A stretch of DNA of 64,000 nt from Aminobacterium sp. MB27-C1. GTDB lineage: Bacteria > Synergistota > Synergistia > Synergistales > Aminobacteriaceae. Positions 1 to 37,522 of this stretch are shown here, one piece after another (position 1 is the first letter of the stretch; every line of letters begins with the position of its first letter). The translations under genes were made by a program, and so were the position numbers. The stretch is taken from contig NZ_CP133089.1 of the NCBI RefSeq assembly GCF_030908405.1, positions 1,674,001-1,738,000 of the forward strand, written 5' to 3'. The notes under the pieces were generated by a model. It saw only the letters and a list, made by a program, of their open reading frames with translations. It had not been told where the DNA came from and searched no databases.

Positions 1-436
1 GGTCATTCAGCAAGCACTTCGGAATGAGGGAATTATTGTAAAAATCAGAGTTGAAAAATCGGGAATGGTTCCCGAAGGAAACAAAAACGGAACACTTGAA
101 TCTGCTTTCATTGCTAGAAATTTTGGTTTTGTTGCCGATCCTATAGGTACATTAACCTCAGACTTCGGCCCTGAGAAAGGGCGAGGTGGATGGGGAGCTA
201 TCAACTGGAATTCAACAACATTTGATGAAGCAGTTAAAACGTACATAGAAACATTCGAAACTGAAAGACAAGTTTCGTTACGGAAAACTATGACAAGCAT
301 TCTACAAGAAGAGCTCCCCGCTATTCCAATAGCGTGGTATGACAACCATGTTACGGTTAATCATAGGATTCAAGGAGTCTCTCTTGATCCTTCAGAAGTA
401 AGGCCTTATCCAGAAGGGGTAGAATGGGCAAAATAA
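1..436 (+). CDS. ABC transporter substrate-binding protein, family 5 (partial, C-terminal end)
   Basis: The open frame enters the window at base 2 and ends at TAA 434-436, so only about 144 C-terminal residues are visible. The sequence resembles the C-terminal lobe of the DppA/OppA/NikA family, which binds peptides, nickel complexes or similar ligands outside the membrane. It includes a stretch typical of these proteins in which final-helix residues precede an ALPAIPI-like strand (here EELPAIPIAWYDN). The stop overlaps the start of the following permease (424), and four more transporter genes follow, so this is the receptor of that ABC system. The ligand cannot be read from this fragment. Family assignment is good; specificity is unknown. 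Confidence 0.85.
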   Translation, partial: VIQQALRNEGIIVKIRVEKSGMVPEGNKNGTLESAFIARNFGFVADPIGTLTSDFGPEKGRGGWGAINWNSTTFDEAVKTYIETFETERQVSLRKTMTSILQEELPAIPIAWYDNHVTVNHRIQGVSLDPSEVRPYPEGVEWAK

Positions 437-1353
437 TATTTTTCGCTCGGACATACTTTTTTCGTATGGTAATAGTTGCTCTGGGAGTGAGTACTCTGTG
501 CTTTCTTGCAGTGGAATTCGCTCCCGGAGACCGAGCTCTTGATGTCGCTATGGCTCGTTATGGTCTAGACGGTGCAACAGCTTCTGCTGTTGAATATGTT
601 CGTACTAGCGAAGGACTAGAGAAACATCCCTTTATTCGCTACAAGGCCTGGCTTTTTTCAGTCATTCAGGGGAGATGGGGGCATTCTCTTGTAGGAGGCG
701 AAGAAATTTTCCCTATGCTGTTACGCTCTTTCAAACGTACAACCCTTTTAGCAGGATTTTCGTTACTCTTGTCTTTCTTATTTGCCTTTCCTCTCGGAAT
801 CTATTGTGGACGTCACCCTGGCCATTACGTTGATATCCTCTCTTCTTTGGCATCGAGTGTTCTTGTTTCCTTCCCTTCTTTTGTCAGAGGAGCCTTTCTT
901 ATACTCTTGTTGGCTGTCAATTTTCACTTTTTTCCTGTCGCCGGTTTTTCTTCTTTTTCCCACATGGTATTGCCTGCTATTACACTTGCCATCGGCCTTG
1001 CAGCAACTTCATCACGAGTCATAGCGTCATCCATTCAGCAAGCCTGCCAAACTGAGCATTATAAATTCGCACAACACAAAGGACTTTGTGGAAAGAACCT
1101 CTTCTTCCCTCATGGTCTTCTCAATGCTTCTGTTCCCATCGTAACTTACGTAGGATTACAAGCGGCAGGTCTTCTTGACGGCGTTGTGGTTATTGAAACG
1201 CTTTTTGCCTGGCCTGGTTTAGGAAGTTTACTTTTAGACGCTCTCCGTTCTGGAGATATTCTTGTTATTCAAGGTGCTGGATTATTGTTAGGCTGGATTT
1301 ATGTTACGGTAAACACATTAACAGATTGGTTATCAGAGGGGTTCATTCTATGA
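424..1353 (+). CDS. ABC transporter permease, DppB/NikB type
   Basis: This is a 309-residue inner-membrane permease of the binding-protein-dependent transport family. A first membrane segment at about residues 13-33 is followed by a periplasmic loop and five more hydrophobic segments. An EAA-type cytoplasmic loop lies near residues 205-225 (HYKFAQHKGLCGKN then HGLLNA), where the ATPase docks. The C-terminal part has the usual ETLFAWPGLG motif of DppB-like proteins. The start overlaps the binding-protein gene by 13 bases, and the stop shares bases with the ATG of the next permease at 1350. It forms the channel with that second permease. Substrate is not deducible. Confidence 0.92.
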   Translation: MGKIIFFARTYFFRMVIVALGVSTLCFLAVEFAPGDRALDVAMARYGLDGATASAVEYVRTSEGLEKHPFIRYKAWLFSVIQGRWGHSLVGGEEIFPMLLRSFKRTTLLAGFSLLLSFLFAFPLGIYCGRHPGHYVDILSSLASSVLVSFPSFVRGAFLILLLAVNFHFFPVAGFSSFSHMVLPAITLAIGLAATSSRVIASSIQQACQTEHYKFAQHKGLCGKNLFFPHGLLNASVPIVTYVGLQAAGLLDGVVVIETLFAWPGLGSLLLDALRSGDILVIQGAGLLLGWIYVTVNTLTDWLSEGFIL

Positions 1354-2150
1354 CAAGAAAACAAAAAGGAGCGATCCTGATTCTCATTGTCCTAATTTTG
1401 GGTTTAGTGTTTCTCTTTTTAAGAAATTCGAATCCTTTTGCTCAAAATCTTTTACATACGTTGGAATCTTCGTCTAAATCTCATATTTTAGGAACGGATC
1501 ATTTGGGAAGAGACCTTGGTGCTCGCATCGCAAAAGGGGCTTTCAATTCTATTCTTTTGTCTGCTATATGTGTCTTGGGGTCTTTATTTATAGGGCTATC
1601 TCTCGGTTCTCTCGCAGCATACAAAAAATCAAATATTGAAAAGGGGCTTTTAATATTTACAGACATTGTTATGGCTTTCCCTGGAATTGTCTTGGCAATT
1701 GTATTAAGCGCTCTTACTCAAGGAGGACCTTGCGCAGTTGTCATTGCTCTTATCTTTACAGGATGGCCTCAATATTTTCGAATGGTACGCAACCTACTTA
1801 AGGGAATTTTAGGAAGCCCTTACGTTGAAGCCGCTCAAATAGCAGGGTTTCCAACCCCTATTCTTTTAGGGAAATACGTATTTCCAAAACTTGTTCCTAC
1901 CATTGGTGTAATGGCTGCTCTTGCATGGGGAAAGACTATTCTAGAAATATCTTCTTTAGGTTTTTTAGGAATTGGGATGGCACCACCAGAACCAGAATTA
2001 GGAGCCATGATATCTGAAGGAATGTCGTACATGAGAACAGCTCCACAAGTTGTTTTTTTACCAGGAACAGTCATTTTTCTTTTTGTCTTTGCCTTTCTTC
2101 TTCTTGGGGACGGGAAAAATCGTAATTGTACAGGAGGATATCACATATGA
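1350..2150 (+). CDS. ABC transporter permease, DppC/NikC type
   Basis: This 266-residue permease is the second channel subunit of the peptide/nickel-type transporter. It has the DppC hallmark GTDHLGRD near residues 48-55, about six hydrophobic segments and an EAA loop (YVEAAQIAGF, then KYVFPKL) in the second half. I start it at ATG 1350, which overlaps the upstream stop in an ATGA arrangement, rather than at the upstream in-frame codon at 1326. The C-terminus is slightly unusual: after the family LLLGDG motif it ends in a short hydrophilic tail instead of the usual RDALDP-like ending. The last codons overlap the next ATPase gene. Confidence 0.92.
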   Translation: MTRKQKGAILILIVLILGLVFLFLRNSNPFAQNLLHTLESSSKSHILGTDHLGRDLGARIAKGAFNSILLSAICVLGSLFIGLSLGSLAAYKKSNIEKGLLIFTDIVMAFPGIVLAIVLSALTQGGPCAVVIALIFTGWPQYFRMVRNLLKGILGSPYVEAAQIAGFPTPILLGKYVFPKLVPTIGVMAALAWGKTILEISSLGFLGIGMAPPEPELGAMISEGMSYMRTAPQVVFLPGTVIFLFVFAFLLLGDGKNRNCTGGYHI

Positions 2151-2965
2151 TCTCTTCTCTTTCTGTACAGCATCTTTTTATTCTTGATGAGAAAAAGAAA
2201 CCTCTCGTACAAAATGTCTCTTTTTCCATTTCCTCAAAAAGTGTCTTTTTTCTGATAGGCGAAACAGGGAGCGGAAAAAGTCTCATCGCCCAAACTATTG
2301 CAGGAACACTTCCTAAAAGGCTCACCGCCAAGGGCAAAATTTTTTTTGAAAAGCAGAATCTTCTCCTGCTAAAAGACAGTGAAAGGCAAAAGCTCTGGGG
2401 AAAATCTCTCTTTCTTATGCCACAAGAACCTTTTTCTGCTCTTAACCCCTTACTCTCTGTTTTCCACCAAGTACGAGAGATATTTGAATATACGAAAGGA
2501 ATGAAAAGGAATCAAGCAAATGAATCAACAAAAGACATTCTTTCAATATTAGGCATTCCTTATCAAGTTTCTAAAGAAAAACCTCATAAGCTTTCGGGAG
2601 GAATGGCCCAAAGAGTGCTCTTGGCAATGGCACTCGCATCTCCAGCAAAATTTATTCTATTGGATGAACCCACCAAAGGTCTAGATTCGTCACGAAAAAA
2701 AGATGCCATCCTTCTCATAAAAGAAATTTTAAATAACGGGAAAACGCTTCTTTGCATTACCCACGACCTTTCTCTCCCTCTTGCGATAGAAGGGAATATA
2801 GGCATCCTTTTTAGAGGAATACTTGTGGAAGAGGGAAAATCAAAAGATATCTTGGGGTCTCCTACCCATCCATACACGCAAGGTCTGCTAGATGCCCTTC
2901 CCGAACGTGGGCTACATCCTATTCCAGAAGAATTACTGGAAAAGCTTGAAAGGACGTGGCTTTAA
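2147..2965 (+). CDS. ABC transporter ATP-binding protein, DppD/OppD type
   Basis: This 272-residue ATPase powers the upstream permeases. Walker A GETGSGKS is at about residues 38-45, a Q-loop follows (MPQEPFSALNP), the signature LSGGMAQR is near 149-156 and Walker B with FILLDEPTKGLD is near 169-180. It is shorter than E. coli DppD (about 327 residues) and ends soon after the HPYTQGLL element of oligopeptide-family ATPases, with no long cysteine-containing tail. The start at 2147 is preferred over 2126 because AGGAGG sits at 2132-2137, nine bases upstream, and it overlaps the previous stop as ATGA. Confidence 0.93.
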   Translation: MISSLSVQHLFILDEKKKPLVQNVSFSISSKSVFFLIGETGSGKSLIAQTIAGTLPKRLTAKGKIFFEKQNLLLLKDSERQKLWGKSLFLMPQEPFSALNPLLSVFHQVREIFEYTKGMKRNQANESTKDILSILGIPYQVSKEKPHKLSGGMAQRVLLAMALASPAKFILLDEPTKGLDSSRKKDAILLIKEILNNGKTLLCITHDLSLPLAIEGNIGILFRGILVEEGKSKDILGSPTHPYTQGLLDALPERGLHPIPEELLEKLERTWL

Positions 2966-2966
2966 T

Positions 2967-3653
2967 ATGGGGAATATTCCCGTAGTAGAAGGGCAACATC
3001 TCTCTAAGATTTTTACAAGGAAAAACAACACTCGTGTTACTCTTTTTTCTAATTTATCTCTCTCTTTATACAGAGGAGAGATTGTAGGTTTATGGGGGTT
3101 ATCAGGAAAAGGAAAAACGACTCTCGGGAATTTGTTACTCGACATTATCTCCCCCGATGAAGGAAATGTATTATGGAAAGGTGAAAACATATCTACTCTA
3201 TCTCATAAAGAGAAAAAAAGACTTCGTCCCCTCTTTCAAAAAATTCACCAAGATCCAGGTTCATCTTTTCCCTCTCATCTAAAGATGCAAACTGTTTTTA
3301 GAGACTTTTATAAATGGGGAAAACACGCAGTCTTTTCTTCGGAACAACATTGGTGGGATTCTCTACATGAAGGAATGAAAAAGGCATCACTTTCAGAAAA
3401 ACTTCTCGATAGATATCCATGTCAGCTTTCTGGTGGAGAACTTCAAAGATTTGCCCTTCTTAGAGCAATGCTTTTCTCCCCCCTTTTTTTTGTAGCTGAT
3501 GAACCTACATCTCGTCTTGATCCTTCAGTCCAAGCCAAAGTCGCACACATGATTGCAGAAGATGCATACAAAAGAAACGTGACTATTCTTTTCATTTCTC
3601 ACGACAAAGCTCTTTTAAGGGCTATATGTTCAAGGATCATTCACCTCGAATAG
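2967..3653 (+). CDS. ABC transporter ATP-binding protein, DppF/OppF type
   Basis: This 228-residue protein is the second ATPase of the transporter. Walker A GLSGKGKTT is at residues 44-52, the signature LSGGELQRF and a Walker B ending in VADEPTSRLD follow, and the H-loop is ISHD. The D-loop reads SRLD rather than the common SALD. It is about 90 residues shorter than E. coli DppF and lacks the C-terminal oligopeptide-family extension. The start ATG lies one base after the upstream stop, so translational coupling is likely. It is the last gene of the operon; the next gene has its own palindromic upstream region. Confidence 0.9.
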   Translation: MGNIPVVEGQHLSKIFTRKNNTRVTLFSNLSLSLYRGEIVGLWGLSGKGKTTLGNLLLDIISPDEGNVLWKGENISTLSHKEKKRLRPLFQKIHQDPGSSFPSHLKMQTVFRDFYKWGKHAVFSSEQHWWDSLHEGMKKASLSEKLLDRYPCQLSGGELQRFALLRAMLFSPLFFVADEPTSRLDPSVQAKVAHMIAEDAYKRNVTILFISHDKALLRAICSRIIHLE

Positions 3654-20095: not shown

Positions 20096-21307
20096 CTATT
20101 CTTTCAACTTTGAAGAGATCAAGTCGCCCAAATTCTTAGCCCCTATTTTAATTTTCTCTGGAGCAACTGCGCCAAAACTCAGTCTCATGCAATTATTTCC
20201 CTTACCGCCACCTTCGACGAAAAAGCCTTCTCCCGCCACATAAGCCACTTTTACATTGGGATTTGATGTCGCTTCCACTAGAAGATCTGTTGTATTGATT
20301 CCTCCCGGCAGCTCCGCCCATGTAAAGAGACCGCCATCAGGGAAGGTTCTCTTGGTTCCTTTCGGGAAAAATGCATCGATACACTCAATCATTGTGTCTC
20401 TTCTCTCTCTATACAGGTCACAAATCATTTTATGGTGAGCTGGATAATAGCCTCGTTTAAAAAACTCCGCACAAATAACCTGAGGCAACATAGAGGTATG
20501 AGAGTTTGTAGCCGTCTTGGCATCGAATAATTTTGTTGTCACTTCGTCGCTGGCAAACACATATCCAAGTCTGCTGCCTGGTGAAAATATTTTCGAAAAA
20601 CTATTTGCAAGAACAGTATGCCCCGTCTCGTCGAATGCCTTAATAGGCTTCAAATCAACGCCACTATAACGTATATCTCGATAAGGATCGTCTTCGAGAA
20701 TAATAACGTCATATTTGCTTCCCAACTCCGCCACTCTCTTTCGTCTCTCAAGGGAAAGGGTTCTTCCTGAAGGATTCTGAAAAGTCGGAATCACGTAAAC
20801 CATCTTGGGTTTGTATTTCATAATTTTGGCTTCGAGATCTTCAGGGATCATTCCATCATTATCCATATCTACGCCAATACATTTAGCCTGGAACATCTCA
20901 AATATTTCCACACAATGCACAAAGGTGGGGGATTCTACCAATATCACGTCTCCCGGATCGATAAAAAGCTGACAGAGAAGGTTCATACCTTCTAAACCAC
21001 CACTTGTGATTAATATATTGTCAGCCTTCGCTTTTACCCCTTTAGGAGCCAACAGCTCACTCACAACAACTTCCCTAAGGTCGAGCAATCCCATAACATT
21101 GCCGTATTGGAGAGCTTCTACCCCTCTTTTATCAGTTCGCATAACTTCGTTGGTAATTTCTCGAACGATATCAATTGGAAGAGCCTCTTTTGCTGGAGCG
21201 CCACCTCCGAAGGAGATAAGATCTGGATCGTTCATTGCACCGAAGAGGTTTCGAATAATCTTGGCGGACTTTTCCATAGTCTTCATTCGTTCGGCAAATC
21301 GTGACAT
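20096..21307 (-). CDS. PLP-dependent aminotransferase, class I/II (2-aminoadipate type)
   Basis: This 403-residue fold-type I aminotransferase resembles the LysN/aminoadipate and MocR-catalytic group. It has the N-terminal LISFGGGAPAKEALP, YGNVMGLLDLREVV, the VIPTFQNPSGRTLS segment with the Asn-Pro motif, EDDPYRDIRY, and the PLP lysine in NSFSKIFSPGSRLGY. The start is ATG 21307 with a GGGGGT site; codons further upstream do not resemble the family. It is the last gene of a four-gene minus-strand unit (nitrilase-like, unknown, PhzF-like, aminotransferase). It probably transaminates an amino acid handled by that pathway. Confidence 0.9.
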   Translation of the reverse strand: MSRFAERMKTMEKSAKIIRNLFGAMNDPDLISFGGGAPAKEALPIDIVREITNEVMRTDKRGVEALQYGNVMGLLDLREVVVSELLAPKGVKAKADNILITSGGLEGMNLLCQLFIDPGDVILVESPTFVHCVEIFEMFQAKCIGVDMDNDGMIPEDLEAKIMKYKPKMVYVIPTFQNPSGRTLSLERRKRVAELGSKYDVIILEDDPYRDIRYSGVDLKPIKAFDETGHTVLANSFSKIFSPGSRLGYVFASDEVTTKLFDAKTATNSHTSMLPQVICAEFFKRGYYPAHHKMICDLYRERRDTMIECIDAFFPKGTKRTFPDGGLFTWAELPGGINTTDLLVEATSNPNVKVAYVAGEGFFVEGGGKGNNCMRLSFGAVAPEKIKIGAKNLGDLISSKLKE

Positions 21308-21344: not shown

Positions 21345-22247
21345 TCACAATAAAATTTCTGATTGGAACACAATAACTGCATTCCCCGAAATTTTAACTT
21401 CGTCAGGTTCTCCATTATTTATATCTACTTGAACGTCTATAACTCCAGGTCGATGAATTGCTTCTCCTTGCATTGCTCTAAAAAAGAATCGTGAGCTTGT
21501 GCAGTCAACTTTTTTGTAATGAACCAGATAAGCCCCTAAAGGCCCGTTGGCATTACCAGTAACAGGATCTTCGGAAATACCTATTGCAGGTGCAAACATC
21601 CTTCCGTGAACTAAAATATCGCTCTCATGATCTATCGTAAAGACATAAAATCCATTGCATTGAATTTTTCCGCTAATTTCTGCCAAAAAGGAAAGATCAG
21701 GCTGAAGACAGTCTAGTGTTTCTTTATCTTTTATGCCAATCATAACTTTTGAGTGGCCAGTAGAAACAATTTGGACTGGATAATTTTCAAGCAAATCTCC
21801 ATAGCTTATATTCAAAGCAGATAGTATTTTGTCCAAAATTTCGCCAGTTAAAGTATCCCCAAACTCAATTTGGCCTTGAGTCATTACTATTCGGTAGTCA
21901 TCTTTTTCTTTAATAATATCAACAGGCAAAATTCCCGCACCGGTTTTTTGGTAAATCCTCACTGTTCCCATAGAGTTTTCAACAGCACGTGCGTAATGCG
22001 CTGCAATTGTTGCGTGGCCACAGATTGGAACTTCTTTTGTTGGTGTAAAAAAACGGACTTCTACGTCATACACATCTTCCAAAGATGGAAAAATAAAAGC
22101 TGTCTCCGAATTATTAAGTTCTCTGGCAATTTTCTGCATTTCCATTTCTGTGAGTCTGTCAGCGTTTGTAATCACTCCTGCCGGATTTCCAGAGAATTTC
22201 TCTTTCGTAAAGGAATCAATTTGATAACAACGGTATTCTCTTGTCAT
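21345..22247 (-). CDS. PhzF family isomerase-like protein
   Basis: This 300-residue protein has the PhzF/diaminopimelate-epimerase-like double fold. The N-terminal IDSFTKEKFSGNPAGV, the catalytic-type Glu in NNSETAFIF, VRFFTPTKEVPICGHATI, and in the second half SEDPVTGNANGPLGAYL are typical. PhzF itself isomerises a dihydroxyanthranilate in phenazine synthesis, but most homologues are not phenazine enzymes and no phenazine genes are here. It starts 31 bases after the unknown gene and ends 37 bases before the aminotransferase. A proton-shift or isomerisation step on an amino-acid-derived compound fits the context, as inference. Confidence 0.9.
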   Translation of the reverse strand: MTREYRCYQIDSFTKEKFSGNPAGVITNADRLTEMEMQKIARELNNSETAFIFPSLEDVYDVEVRFFTPTKEVPICGHATIAAHYARAVENSMGTVRIYQKTGAGILPVDIIKEKDDYRIVMTQGQIEFGDTLTGEILDKILSALNISYGDLLENYPVQIVSTGHSKVMIGIKDKETLDCLQPDLSFLAEISGKIQCNGFYVFTIDHESDILVHGRMFAPAIGISEDPVTGNANGPLGAYLVHYKKVDCTSSRFFFRAMQGEAIHRPGVIDVQVDINNGEPDEVKISGNAVIVFQSEILL

Positions 22248-22278: not shown

Positions 22279-22728
22279 TTACTCTTTGCAGAAAACATTA
22301 TCGGCTTTTAGAATTACAGACCATGAGGATATTCTTTTCTCGCCATCAAAGCAAATTCCAATAGCTTTATAGGTTTTTTCATTAAGAAGTGTAAGGACTT
22401 CGAAGCCTGAATATTTTTCGTCTTCTGATACAAAATCAGAAATTATTGCATCATCAATAAAAGAGAATTTGCCACATAACTTGCCGAGACCGGGGTTAAA
22501 AGACGTCCATTTCAAAATACAGTTATCATCGGTTGGTTCCACTTCATAATCGTTATAGAACTTAATGGGGGTATCGAGTAAAACTTCCATAAAACCAGAT
22601 ATTGACCAACGTTCTTTGTCGCGTTTTACTTTGCTCTGGCCATTAACTTTATACTCTTTCCCATGTTCATCAAAATAGATGCCAGATGCAATCCAATTCA
22701 TTGTTTCCAAGAGCATTAAATGGCGCAT
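22279..22728 (-). CDS. Conserved-looking protein of unknown function
   Basis: I do not recognise this 149-residue soluble protein. It has no signal peptide or membrane segment and is predicted mostly beta: short strands alternate, as in WIASGIYFDEHGKEY, CILKWTSFNPGLGKL, GKFSFIDDAII and YKAIGICFDGEKR, which suggests a small barrel. GGGGGG precedes ATG 22728. It lies 19 bases after the nitrilase-fold gene and 31 before the PhzF-like gene, so it belongs to that operon and may act on the same compound. Confidence 0.75.
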   Translation of the reverse strand: MRHLMLLETMNWIASGIYFDEHGKEYKVNGQSKVKRDKERWSISGFMEVLLDTPIKFYNDYEVEPTDDNCILKWTSFNPGLGKLCGKFSFIDDAIISDFVSEDEKYSGFEVLTLLNEKTYKAIGICFDGEKRISSWSVILKADNVFCKE

Positions 22729-22747: not shown

Positions 22748-23539
22748 TTAGTTCACTCTATATATCATCGGTTGGCGATCACAAAACATGTTAGTTGAGT
22801 TATTAATATCGCTAATCATGGCAAGATCTATATCAGTTGTAAGTGTATTCTCTACCAATCCAGTACGCCCGAGAATCTCACCCCGAGGACCTGTTAGTGA
22901 TGAATTCCCTCCATATTTCACTTTAGCCGCAGTGCCACATGAATTCGTAAAAACGAAGAAAGACTGATTTTCAATAGCCCTTGCCTCTACAAGCACATTT
23001 ATATGCGTAATATCAGTCATTGGCCATTGAGCAACGGCAAATAATACATCTGCTCCTTGGAGTGCCAAAGTTCTTGTCAGCTCTGGGAAATACACATCAT
23101 ATCCAATAACAACTCCGCACGTCACATCATCAAGTTTAAAAATAGTTGAGTGATTTCCTTGAGAAAAATAGTCATTTTCGCCTATGGAAGAAAACAGATG
23201 AGCTTTATCATATTCAGCAATGCATATACCCGCTCTATTAAAGACAAGCGATGTATTGAAAATTTGATTTTCACGTCTGTTGCCAACTGAACCAGCAACA
23301 ATGTTGATATTTAACTCTCTAGCTAATGAGCCTAATTCACGCTTAGTACGTTCACCTTCATTATCGCAGAGAACGTCTAGATTTTCCTTAGGGAAAAAAC
23401 CGATGTTCCACATCTCAGGCAAAACTATTACATCTGGCTTTTCATTTTCAACTGTTTTTCTTATCAACTTTTGCACACGAGAAAAGTTATGATCAACATC
23501 AGCCAGCTTCGTCTTCATTTGAATACTACTAATACGCAC
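22748..23539 (-). CDS. Nitrilase-fold protein lacking the catalytic cysteine
   Basis: This 263-residue protein has the carbon-nitrogen hydrolase fold. Glu42 (VLPEMW) and Lys112 (YDKAHLF) of the Glu-Lys-Cys triad are present. The third residue, which should be Cys in an ICYD motif, is Gly146 (VIGYDVYFPEL, codon GGA at 23104-23102). The nearest Cys is 141, five residues earlier. Length and the other conserved blocks (PEL then RAIENQSFF) are normal, so the fold is intact but hydrolysis by the normal mechanism is not expected. The start is GTG 23539 with AAAGGAGG six bases upstream. It is the first gene of the 20096-23539 operon. Confidence 0.88.
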   Translation of the reverse strand: MRISSIQMKTKLADVDHNFSRVQKLIRKTVENEKPDVIVLPEMWNIGFFPKENLDVLCDNEGERTKRELGSLARELNINIVAGSVGNRRENQIFNTSLVFNRAGICIAEYDKAHLFSSIGENDYFSQGNHSTIFKLDDVTCGVVIGYDVYFPELTRTLALQGADVLFAVAQWPMTDITHINVLVEARAIENQSFFVFTNSCGTAAKVKYGGNSSLTGPRGEILGRTGLVENTLTTDIDLAMISDINNSTNMFCDRQPMIYRVN

Positions 23540-23554
23540 GATAAACCTCCTTTA

Positions 23555-23585
23555 CAAAAAAAGAAAAGCGGCGTCAGAAAACGCC
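23555..23585 (-). terminator. Terminator-like hairpin just before the nitrilase-fold gene
   Basis: On the minus strand GGCGT pairs with ACGCC (23585-23570), followed by a T-rich tract to 23555. It ends about 16 bases before the GTG start, inside what should be the leader. The 23586-23760 stretch holds no gene I can see. The arrangement looks like an attenuator. Confidence 0.55.
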
Positions 23586-23761
23586 TTAAAAAACATGACA
23601 AATAAGAAGTAATTGATTCTGGGGAAAACAAATCTATGGCCATATTCACAAGATTACTGGGTTGGTCGTGATCTAGTTTTCGAGGATTATTTACAACAAT
23701 GCACTTTATTGTATATACAATTATAACATAAGGATACTATTTTTGCAAATTAAGAAAATTA

Positions 23762-24697: not shown

Positions 24698-25501
24698 CTA
24701 TCTATAGTGAACAACAGCCACTCCTTCATCAGTGATAATCTCTTCAAGCTTTTTTACATGTTCTTTCGACGGGGTTTCAAAGTCATGCCAATACTTTTCA
24801 AGGCCAAGAAGTCCGTATTTGAATGCGCCGAAATTATGATAGGGCAACAGCTCCATTATCTTCCATCTCATATGGCGCGAAACAAATCGAGCAGTATTTC
24901 TAATATTTTCTTCGCTATCATTAACATGCATTATGAGCGGAACACGAATCACTGTCTTTATTCCAGTTGCACCTATACACTTAAGATTATCAAGAATTAT
25001 TTTATTCTCCACACCTGTCAGCCTCTTATGATGAATACTCTCCATATGCTTAATATCGGCAAAGACAAAATCGAGTTTTTCAATAATATCTGATGCATCC
25101 TGCCAATTGAAAAAACACGACGTTTCTACCGCCTGAGAAAATCTGGATGAAGAACACTCTCTTACAAGTTGCCGTAAATTTCTGGGGTAAAAAAAGGGTT
25201 CCCCTCCCGACCATGTGACTCCCCCTTCAGAGTGACGGTAAAAAAGAGAATATCGTTCAAGTTCCCTAACAATTTCATCTACAGACATAAAACGGCCCAT
25301 AACTTCACCTTTACCAGAAGACAAGATAACTTCTTTGGGGAATGGCGTCCATGTTTCAGGGTTACAGCACCAATGACAGCGGAGAGGACACCCGCTCAAA
25401 AAAACTGTTGAACGGATTCCCTCTCCATCATTGACAGAAAAATGCTGAATTTGAGAGACACAAATTTTTCTATCTGCCATATCTAACTTAGAAAGATCCA
25501 T
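24698..25501 (-). CDS. Glycyl radical enzyme activating enzyme (radical SAM)
   Basis: This 267-residue radical SAM protein installs the glycyl radical on the partner enzyme encoded just upstream. The cluster motif CPLRCHWC (CxxxCxxC), preceded by NDGEGIRSTVFLSG, binds the [4Fe-4S] centre; WSGGEP is the SAM-contacting GGE motif. The long insert with two extra clusters found in many activases is missing, so it resembles pyruvate formate-lyase activase. The start at 25501 overlaps the enzyme gene by 14 bases; ATG 25480 is an alternative start. Both genes are under the XRE-cupin promoter. Confidence 0.92.
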   Translation of the reverse strand: MDLSKLDMADRKICVSQIQHFSVNDGEGIRSTVFLSGCPLRCHWCCNPETWTPFPKEVILSSGKGEVMGRFMSVDEIVRELERYSLFYRHSEGGVTWSGGEPFFYPRNLRQLVRECSSSRFSQAVETSCFFNWQDASDIIEKLDFVFADIKHMESIHHKRLTGVENKIILDNLKCIGATGIKTVIRVPLIMHVNDSEENIRNTARFVSRHMRWKIMELLPYHNFGAFKYGLLGLEKYWHDFETPSKEHVKKLEEIITDEGVAVVHYR

Positions 25502-27860
25502 GTTCCGTTCGAGCTATAATAGCATCTTGCATCTCCCGAGAAAGATTGACAAACTGGGTGCTATATCCAGCCACTCTTACTAGCAGATCGCGATATTGCT
25601 CTGGTTTTGCCTGAGCCTTTCTTAATTCCTCTGTAGAAATTGTGTTAAATTGAACATGAAAAGCCCCTAAGGAAAAATACGCCTGGATCATGGCACCCAA
25701 ATTACGAAGCCCTCTATCGGAACTAACCAATTCTTTATTCAATCTCAAGTTAAGAAGAGTACCTCCAGCATGAACATCATGATTCACCTTCGCTGCTGAA
25801 CGCATCACTGCAAGGGGAGTCGTTACATCGCTTCCGGCAAAGGGAGAAACACCTTCTGTAAGAGGTTCTTTCGCTCTTCTGCCACATGGAAGAGCTCCCA
25901 CAATTTTCCCTGTGGGGACATAGTTGGAAATACCCATAAAAGCCGAATTAAAGGGGGACCCCAATATATCTTTATGTCTACGGGTTTCACGATAATAGAA
26001 ATCAGAAATCTCTGTCACAAGCGAATCTACATAGTCGTCATCGTTTCCATATTTAGGAACGTGAAGTGCTTTCTCTCGCAAGTTTTCGTACCCTTCCCAA
26101 TTACTATTTAAAGCAGAAAAGATCTCTTCCATAGTAGTTTTCTTGTCATCAAAAACCAGCTTTTTTATTGCAGCAAGAGAGTTCGCAACAACACCTAGGC
26201 CAATTCCCGTAAGAACAGGACCTATATTATATTTAGCTCCTCCTTTGCTAAGATCTGTCCCCTTGTCGAGACACCCATCTACACAAATTGAGAGGAAGGG
26301 ACGAGGAACCATCTCCATATGAATTTTCTGGGCTGTAACTGTTCCAATTACGGAATGGTCGACCAAATAGGAAAGTTGTCGCATAAAAGCCTCTTTAACC
26401 TCACGAAAATCTTTAAACTCTCTGGCAGGTTTTTCAGAAAGACCTAAAGGTTCTCCTGTGAGGCGACTCTTTCCCTCATTTAGCGCATATTCTAAAGCCG
26501 CTCCGAAATTTACATTAACAGCAGAGGTCCATTCTCCAGTTTTTCTAAAATGAGGAACGACACAGCCACAATTGCTCCAATCTCGTGCATCTTCAGGATC
26601 GTATCCAGCTTGCAAAAGCATGTCGGCTCCTGCTCTGTCGTTATGAATAGCGGGGAAACCTAATCCTTTACTTACAAGCTTTGCTACTGCCATTACAAAC
26701 TTATGTGGAGAATCTGGATGTATTCTTACACTCAAACCTGGTTGGTGCGTTTTTACACTGGCTGTAGCTTCTAGACAAATATAAGAGAGATCATTTGTTC
26801 CGTCACTTCCGTCTCTTTTACGTCCTCCTACTGTCAAATTTTGAAACTGATTGTACCCTGCAAAATAATTAGCCGTATTAGAAGAAATTGTCCACACCCA
26901 TTCAGAAAGCTTGAGCCAGAGACATTCAATTAATTCTTGTGCTTTTTCTCTATTCAACTGGCCTTTTTCTACATCAGATTTATAAAAAGGGTACATGTAT
27001 TGATCAAAACGCCCTAGATTTAGGGCCAGAGGATTTTCAGAAATAATACCGCCGAGTTGCACAAACCATACGAACTGACAAGCCTCGCGAAATGTTCGAG
27101 GTGGTTCTGCTGGAACACGCTTGCACACATCAGAAATGGCAAGAAGTTCGACCTTTCTTATTTCATCTTCTTCTGAAAGAGCCATTGTTCTAGCCATCTC
27201 ACTATATCGTTCCGCCAGGCGCATAATGCCATTACAGGCAATAATCACAGAGTTATAAAAATCAATTTTTTCTATATTCGAAAAAGAATCGGCTTTAAGC
27301 AACGACAGCTTTCTTTCTGCATCATCACGTATTTTTCTATATCCCCGAGGGAAAAGTACATCCTGATAATCAGGAGTGACTTCTCCCACAGCTTGACGCC
27401 ATTTTGAGTCGTTGTCGAGAATACCTGTATCAACAAGAATTTTGGCCGTATCTTTTGGAACCCGCGTAAGAAAAGTTTCTTCCAGAGAGTTTCCCTTCCA
27501 ATATGGCCATACATTTTTTCGTAAAAAGTTTTTCTGCTCTTCTGTAATGACATAAGGATCCTGAGGCCGCTTATCAAAGGAATCCATCTCCCTATCAACC
27601 CACATCCACGAAAACTCTGGAGTCAAAATAGCTGTTCGTCGGAACTCACCTGGGGTTCCTACAAGGAGTTCTTCAGGAAAAATAAGAGCTGGGAGTTTTT
27701 CACACGCTTCAGCAAAAGCTTTTGCCCTTCGCACTGCTATTGGTTCTCCCGCTGTTTTCTTATGGGAGTTTGTCCATATCTCAGCTCGTAAACAACTAAT
27801 AGATGGTTTGCTATTAATATATTCCTTTCGAATTTTCTCAGTCCTTTGGCTAATACTCAT
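25488..27860 (-). CDS. Glycyl radical enzyme of unknown substrate
   Basis: This 790-residue protein has the pyruvate formate-lyase barrel. The radical-bearing Gly765 is in RVAGYSTQFVNLS near the C-terminus, and the thiyl Cys433 is in NCGCVVP. In dehydratase and C-S or C-N lyase members the second residue after that Cys is Glu (GCVE), acting as a base; here it is Val435. Canonical formate-lyase has a Cys-Cys pair, and here the residues are Cys431 and Cys433 with Gly between. It therefore fits no subclass I know. The start is ATG 27860, eight bases after AAGGAG. A cupin regulator precedes it and the activase overlaps its end. Confidence 0.92.
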   Translation of the reverse strand: MSISQRTEKIRKEYINSKPSISCLRAEIWTNSHKKTAGEPIAVRRAKAFAEACEKLPALIFPEELLVGTPGEFRRTAILTPEFSWMWVDREMDSFDKRPQDPYVITEEQKNFLRKNVWPYWKGNSLEETFLTRVPKDTAKILVDTGILDNDSKWRQAVGEVTPDYQDVLFPRGYRKIRDDAERKLSLLKADSFSNIEKIDFYNSVIIACNGIMRLAERYSEMARTMALSEEDEIRKVELLAISDVCKRVPAEPPRTFREACQFVWFVQLGGIISENPLALNLGRFDQYMYPFYKSDVEKGQLNREKAQELIECLWLKLSEWVWTISSNTANYFAGYNQFQNLTVGGRKRDGSDGTNDLSYICLEATASVKTHQPGLSVRIHPDSPHKFVMAVAKLVSKGLGFPAIHNDRAGADMLLQAGYDPEDARDWSNCGCVVPHFRKTGEWTSAVNVNFGAALEYALNEGKSRLTGEPLGLSEKPAREFKDFREVKEAFMRQLSYLVDHSVIGTVTAQKIHMEMVPRPFLSICVDGCLDKGTDLSKGGAKYNIGPVLTGIGLGVVANSLAAIKKLVFDDKKTTMEEIFSALNSNWEGYENLREKALHVPKYGNDDDYVDSLVTEISDFYYRETRRHKDILGSPFNSAFMGISNYVPTGKIVGALPCGRRAKEPLTEGVSPFAGSDVTTPLAVMRSAAKVNHDVHAGGTLLNLRLNKELVSSDRGLRNLGAMIQAYFSLGAFHVQFNTISTEELRKAQAKPEQYRDLLVRVAGYSTQFVNLSREMQDAIIARTEHGSF

Positions 27861-27883
27861 TATTATCACTCCTTACAACCACA

Positions 27884-36700: not shown

Positions 36701-37522
36701 TTAACGATTAGTTTTCCACATATCGTCAGGGTAACTTTGAGGCCGTCTGTCACGGAACATGTGAATTGTATCGCGAATTTTCTGTGTCTCTGAAAAATCA
36801 ACACTTCCCGTAACAATCTCTTCCTGATCCCCACCCTCTGCAATAACTTCACCCCACGGATCGATAATCATGGAATGTCCGCAATAGGTCCCCATAGGAC
36901 TAGCTCCCACACGATTACATGCAATAATAAACATCTGATTTTCAATAGCACGAGCTAAAAGGAGAGTTCTCCAATGGTTTACTCTTGGATTAGGAAAATC
37001 GGAAGTCTCAATCACTACATCTGCCCCACGTAAGGCATATGTTCTGAAAAGTTCACAGAAGCGAAGATCATAGCAAATAGCGATCCCCACTTTTCCAAGC
37101 TCGGTATCATATACATTCATATCAGTTCCATGCTTATAGGCAACGTCTTCGTCCATATCGCTATATAAATGCATCTTGCTATAATCCCCTACAATCTCAC
37201 CGTTACGATTGATAAGAAAAGCAGTATTGCGCATTCCATCTTCAAATTGTGTTCCAATAGATCCACCAAGAATCCATACGTTATGCTTTTTAGCGCACTC
37301 CTTAAGAAGAGTTACTGAAGGACCATCAATCGGCTCTATGAAATCTTCCATATGGTGAAACATCTCATCAGAAAAACCTGTGCTCCAATCCTCGGGTAAA
37401 ACGATCATATCCGGACGTTTTTGAGCAGACATGGCCTTATCAATCATTTCTTTTACGTGTGAATGGTTATACTCTGGATCACAAAATTTAATATCCGTCT
37501 GCAACAATGCAAAATTAACCAT
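36701..37522 (-). CDS. Carbon-nitrogen hydrolase (nitrilase/omega-amidase type)
   Basis: This 273-residue enzyme has a complete Glu-Lys-Cys triad: Glu44 (VLPEDW), Lys116 (YSKMHLY) and Cys150 (AICYDLRFCEL). The LLLARAIENQMFIIACNRVG block is normal. It cleaves C-N bonds such as those of omega-amides or carbamoylated amino acids. It lies between the IT-type transporter (24-base gap) and the M20 hydrolase. The three together suggest import and stepwise hydrolysis of amide substrates. Compare the paralogue at 22748-23539, which has lost the cysteine. Confidence 0.93.
   Translation of the reverse strand: MVNFALLQTDIKFCDPEYNHSHVKEMIDKAMSAQKRPDMIVLPEDWSTGFSDEMFHHMEDFIEPIDGPSVTLLKECAKKHNVWILGGSIGTQFEDGMRNTAFLINRNGEIVGDYSKMHLYSDMDEDVAYKHGTDMNVYDTELGKVGIAICYDLRFCELFRTYALRGADVVIETSDFPNPRVNHWRTLLLARAIENQMFIIACNRVGASPMGTYCGHSMIIDPWGEVIAEGGDQEEIVTGSVDFSETQKIRDTIHMFRDRRPQSYPDDMWKTNR

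Follow-up and report, generated by a model that had tools for sequence, protein, structure and literature searches.

Within a 64,000-nucleotide window of the Aminobacterium sp. MB27-C1 genome, a gene on the reverse strand encodes a nitrilase-fold protein in which the catalytic cysteine has given way to glycine. The explanation that we favor, at a probability of roughly 60%, is that this is a lineage-specific pseudoenzyme, non-hydrolytic and with a remodeled pocket, which persists under partial purifying selection and is seen in one genome. Pseudoenzymes are known from many enzyme families, engineered Cys-less forms of the nitrilase fold bind amides, and an inactive subunit can direct the activity of an active partner. 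No example of a natural nitrilase-fold pseudoenzyme was found in the open literature that we searched.

The open reading frame (positions 22748 to 23539, reverse strand) encodes 263 amino acids with Gly at the nucleophile position, as judged from Pfam, the alignment and an AlphaFold model. It begins with a GTG start codon, six bases upstream of which AAAGGAGG provides a strong ribosome-binding site, and it contains neither a stop nor a frameshift. PF00795 (CN_hydrolase) matches residues 2 to 244 of 263 with an E-value of 3.6e-44, so that homology extends over the whole domain, and given this match, routine calling would label the protein a hydrolase, which is a warning for annotation. The original prediction had described Glu42 and Lys112 as retained and the ICYD motif as IGYD, and the sequence bears this out, with the GGA codon at 23102 to 23104 (reverse strand) placing Gly146 where Cys is expected (residues 145 to 148). 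The second glutamate, Glu121, is also kept, and all three residues are invariant in the alignment. The paralogue in the same window (36701 to 37522) does carry Cys150, as had been stated. The host genome, a single contig of 2.43 Mb, has five CN_hydrolase genes by Pfam search, and a closer paralogue (G000:C1:712122), 47% identical to the nitrilase-fold protein, retains its Cys. The protein belongs to the nitrilase superfamily by descent and fold, and not as an active carbon-nitrogen hydrolase.

The protein was compared with 40 homologues drawn from the same genus, from the same order and phylum, and from Clostridia. All 40 have Cys in the column of residue 146, with Gly in this protein only, which thus lacks the catalytic cysteine of the family. 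It had been proposed to look for Gly in the same column of orthologues; the glycine proved to be real and beyond chance, but it is not shared. Since the closest homologue, which is from the same genus and 68% identical (hereafter the sister), reads ICYDIRFPE, Gly146 arose in this lineage, and on the alignment it is a derived state confined to this genome. In a leave-one-out comparison, the other 40 sequences share 32 invariant columns, and the nitrilase-fold protein departs from these at exactly four (C146G, R150Y, R176D and R246N); each of the other homologues departs at one invariant column at most. The otherwise invariant arginines are replaced by Tyr150, four residues after the nucleophile position (TAT, 23090 to 23092), Asp176 (GAT, 23012 to 23014) and Asn246 (AAT, 22802 to 22804), as read from the reverse-strand codons and the alignment. 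Whichever codon the ancestral residue had, each of the four replacements requires a minimum of two base changes. The first mark of a pseudoenzyme, a homologue of an enzyme family in which essential catalytic residues are missing, is thus found here as C146G together with the loss of three invariant arginines.

The catalytic loops and the tail have been rewritten and the core and presumed dimer helices kept, which is the pattern expected of a maintained non-catalytic protein. Residues 146-151 and 171-176 match the sister at 3/6 positions in each segment, compared with 6/6 in each for an order-level relative (G038), and the tail (214-263) matches at 22/50 compared with 34/50 for G038. Strand 79-89, on the other hand, is identical to the sister at 11/11 positions (8/11 in G038). 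For helices 152-160 and 177-191, which we take to be the dimer-forming (A-interface) pair and which were chosen after the alignment had been seen, identity to the sister is 22/24 (17/24 in G038), compared with 155/238 in the rest of the protein (p = 0.006). Dimers formed through the A-interface are the common arrangement in the nitrilase superfamily (PMC6637149). The AlphaFold model (mean pLDDT 94.8; TM 0.96 to 3p8k) predicts the alpha-beta-beta-alpha fold, with the proviso that it depends on aligned sequences of active relatives and that instability would not be visible in it.

In the protein tree, the branch leading to the nitrilase-fold protein measures 0.460 and that of the sister 0.054, an 8.5-fold difference in length, and polarization by outgroups places 36 changes on the former and 7 on the latter. 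Four control genes polarized in the same way gave 34/23, 17/21, 29/19 and 6/8, in total 86 versus 71 (Fisher p = 0.0007 for the contrast with 36 versus 7), and because they lack the asymmetry, fast evolution is not a property of the entire genome. A custom-written codon model (GY-like, F3x4, eight sequences, one omega assumed per branch) gave an omega of 0.246 on the nitrilase-fold branch versus 0.074 elsewhere (2dlnL 15.9 over one ratio) and rejected omega = 1 on that branch with a 2dlnL of 10 when no equal-time constraint was imposed. With equal time for both sisters, omega became 0.30 versus 0.075 and omega = 1 costs a 2dlnL of 41; all of these estimates depend on one close relative, with dS partly saturated. 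Since omega is 0.25-0.30 as opposed to 0.07 and omega = 1 is rejected, selection on the gene is relaxed three- to fourfold, yet present. Maintenance by selection, the second mark of a pseudoenzyme, is therefore seen as well, with one close relative as the reference.

The main rival explanation, unlikely but still to be taken seriously, is that of a decaying gene which lost its function recently and is drifting with its frame still unbroken. The raised omega and the long branch would fit with this, as would the loss of several catalytic residues and a local gene order unlike that of the closest relative. However, the rejection of omega = 1 for this branch speaks against it, and so do simulations begun from the sister sequence, in which recent decay was represented by neutrality of every site in the last quarter of the branch and site release by a quarter of the sites being free along the entire branch. 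The recent-decay runs were stop-free in 0.5% of cases, and across simulations a neutral phase long enough to produce the excess of changes keeps the frame in 0.5-2.6%. Multi-base changes made up 0.10 of the amino acid changes under recent decay (2.5-97.5%: 0.04-0.175) and 0.22 under site release, against an observed 10/36 of the polarized changes (0.28) and 20/84 of all differences from the sister, a comparison that is indicative rather than exact because the set of 36 polarized changes is biased toward conserved positions, and some of the 84 differences arose on the sister branch. Read in this indicative way, the multi-hit codons fit the release of a subset of sites, and recent decay gives too few of them. 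Decay is also hard to reconcile with the distribution of the changes, which are concentrated around the nucleophile, within loop 171-176 and along the C-terminal tail and leave the core and the two helices conserved, or with a strong ribosome-binding site at the head of a compact gene cluster.

A more specific form of the pseudoenzyme reading, and a rather improbable one, is that the protein is the non-catalytic subunit of a mixed complex, pairing with an active nitrilase of the same genome, such as the 47%-identical paralogue, and tuning its activity. The paralogue keeps its Cys and the presumed dimer helices of the nitrilase-fold protein are conserved. Moreover, inactive plant nitrilase subunits pass specificity to their active partners (PMC6214922), and grass NIT4 enzymes function only as heteromers (PMC3537687). 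Against this, the paralogue lies in another locus, together with TRAP-transporter genes, and an identity of 47% is low for mixed dimers.

It is very unlikely that the protein is an active enzyme with some other nucleophile, be it Cys141, the substitute offered by the original prediction, or a water activated by Glu42 or Glu121. The retention of Glu42, Lys112 and Glu121 would allow for such an enzyme, but the arginines at 150, 176 and 246 have been lost as well, and Cys141 is ancestral: of the 10 closest relatives in the alignment, 9 carry it along with Cys146; the sister, G038, five Clostridia and G043 all have both residues. In the structure prediction that had been suggested as a check, Cys141 lies within strand 139-145, five residues before the nucleophile position and ahead of the elbow, and its side chain should face the opposite side of the sheet. 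As an ancestral residue that coexists with Cys146, it was rejected as a replacement nucleophile. The probability of a sequencing or assembly error is negligible, since, although only one genome is available, the frame is intact and four invariant residues have been replaced among the 36 polarized changes, each replacement taking a minimum of two base changes, which excludes a stray error. A close orthologue with Cys had been named beforehand as a sign of local mutation or error, and the sister is formally such an orthologue, but that interpretation is countered by the selection analysis and by four replacements that each take more than one nucleotide change.

The pocket offers some indication of what has changed besides catalysis. 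In the Aminobacter D-carbamoylase (nucleophile Cys172), Arg176 has been named as a residue of substrate recognition (PMC3546935). Its counterpart at Cys+4 is Tyr150 in the nitrilase-fold protein, which in this respect is not of the acid-recognizing omega-amidase type, and by analogy with the carbamoylase, R150Y has probably done away with the ancestral mode of substrate binding. Loss of the Cys alone would not stop binding, since, by their PDB titles, Cys-to-Ala variants of related amidases hold amides in crystals. The original idea of a protein that binds but does not hydrolyze therefore survives insofar as the Cys mechanism of the family is unusable and the gene looks maintained; the alternative through Cys141 does not survive, and a role as pathway sensor is weakened. 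On the pseudoenzyme reading, the gene is the orthologue of one for a typical Cys-Glu-Lys amidase from the nitrilase superfamily, and after the loss of catalysis in this lineage it would have been kept as a pseudoenzyme. The comparisons show that the nucleophile loop, loop 171-176 and the C-terminal tail have been rewritten, with codons there often hit more than once, and that the alpha-beta-beta-alpha core and the two presumed dimer helices are preserved. The protein would still fold and dimerize but not hydrolyze C-N bonds, and it may act by binding, either to a different small ligand in the remodeled pocket or to a protein partner. A tentative extension, possible rather than probable, is that the pocket, once emptied, was remade to accept a new ligand or partner and that the protein acts together with its operon neighbors, including a calycin-type barrel.

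Three genes follow on the same strand (22728-22279, 22247-21345 and 21307-20096) with gaps of 19, 31 and 37 nt, and this tight spacing makes the proposed operon led by the nitrilase-fold gene plausible. The second gene (22279 to 22728) encodes 149 amino acids with no match in Pfam or NCBIfam and no significant sequence match in the PDB; AlphaFold and Foldseek predict a ten-stranded calycin-type barrel, nitrobindin or CpeS-like (pLDDT 86.9; matches to 4tq2, 2fr2 and 3wje). The only homologues found come from one other family, in five genomes, where they are not near any nitrilase; the gene is missing from other genomes of the same genus, and no homologues were found in plasmids and phages. Three of the homologous loci are near a carbamate-kinase-like gene and three follow a gene resembling the B3/4 domain, with both names assigned by eye. 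The third gene (21345 to 22247) is a PhzF-family isomerase (NCBIfam PRK10281 equivalog, 460.6 bits versus a cut-off of 386), which at this similarity was not found in the two other genomes of the genus and has few close relatives. The fourth (20096 to 21307), a class I PLP aminotransferase by Pfam, has copies of 65-87% identity in other genomes of the order, with no nitrilase or PhzF nearby. Other genera and families of the order have copies that are 81-87% identical, but in each of the two other genomes of the genus the best match is at about 40%, a patchy spread that suggests horizontal transfer.

Upstream of the operon, a consensus scan alone points to a promoter-like site (23720 to 23749, reverse strand; TTTGCA, an 18-base spacer and TATAAT, with an extended TG). 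Between it and the ribosome-binding site, the scan picked out a terminator-like hairpin with a T-rich tail (23570 to 23585, reverse strand), a possible attenuator of the operon. Over its full length the leader shows no unusual folding (z -0.84), and no RNA families were found between 15 and 30 kb in the window. None of the relatives examined has this nitrilase beside PhzF or this aminotransferase; the nitrilase relatives adjoin TRAP-transporter or NAD-synthetase-like genes. With its partners not conserved among relatives, the operon looks like a recent assembly. A conserved operon failed as a guide to function, as the partners stand apart in other genomes. That the nitrilase-fold protein acts in the operon pathway is possible but unsupported, and the suggestion that it serves this pathway as a ligand sensor or scaffold loses ground with Arg150 gone and no examined relative pairing the nitrilase with PhzF or this aminotransferase. 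In Clostridia, nitrilase relatives (L037-L040) directly precede NAD-synthetase/PP-loop ATPase-like genes at at least three loci, in some cases after an aminotransferase, and the pair may represent a split glutamine-dependent arrangement.

A second enzyme in the window also has a catalytic residue replaced. The glycyl radical enzyme at 25488 to 27869 (reverse strand) best matches choline TMA-lyase, at 731 bits and below the cut-off of 1050, and keeps the active-site Cys436 and the RVAGY radical motif. It reads GCVVP where CutC reads GCVEP, with Val aligned to the glutamate after the Cys that we take to be the general base. Its activase (24698 to 25501, reverse strand) is short, at 267 amino acids, matches TIGR02494 in two stretches and has no Cys-rich stretch besides the CxxxCxxC site, so that it seems to be without the extra ferredoxin-like cluster insert usual in its class.

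Among known systems, the heteromeric plant NIT4A/NIT4B complexes (PMC3537687, PMC5154151) are an earlier case of nitrilase subunits acting by way of a partner, although they are helical nitrilases of another branch. The omega-amidase of the Nit2 type is a partner of glutamine transaminases (PMC6302742) and belongs to the nitrilase superfamily, and here too an aminotransferase shares the gene cluster; however, the catalytic Cys is absent from the nitrilase-fold protein, and other genomes have this aminotransferase with no nitrilase beside it. The best solved relative, the Staphylococcus aureus CN-hydrolase 3p8k (35% identity, TM 0.96), differs in retaining ICYDLRFPE, with both the Cys and the Arg at Cys+4. 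The Pyrococcus horikoshii amidase C146A (6ypa) and the Nesterenkonia amidase C145A (4izs, 5ny7) have the same fold and were made Cys-less in the laboratory, with crystals that hold amides according to their PDB titles. They carry one engineered change in an otherwise intact pocket, whereas the pocket of the nitrilase-fold protein is altered too. The closest counterpart is the sister (G001:C1:485997, L008), which is alike over its full length and lies in the same broad chromosomal region, with homologues of window positions 65-3653 and of the mscS gene within about 30 kb. Unlike the nitrilase-fold protein, it has Cys146, Arg150, Arg176 and Arg246, and the genes around it, named by eye, encode a GntR-like regulator, a UroD-like protein and a TRAP transporter instead of PhzF and the aminotransferase. 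Together with this 68%-identical, Cys-bearing relative, the nitrilase-fold protein offers a compact before-and-after case of how a pocket is rewritten following the loss of catalysis.
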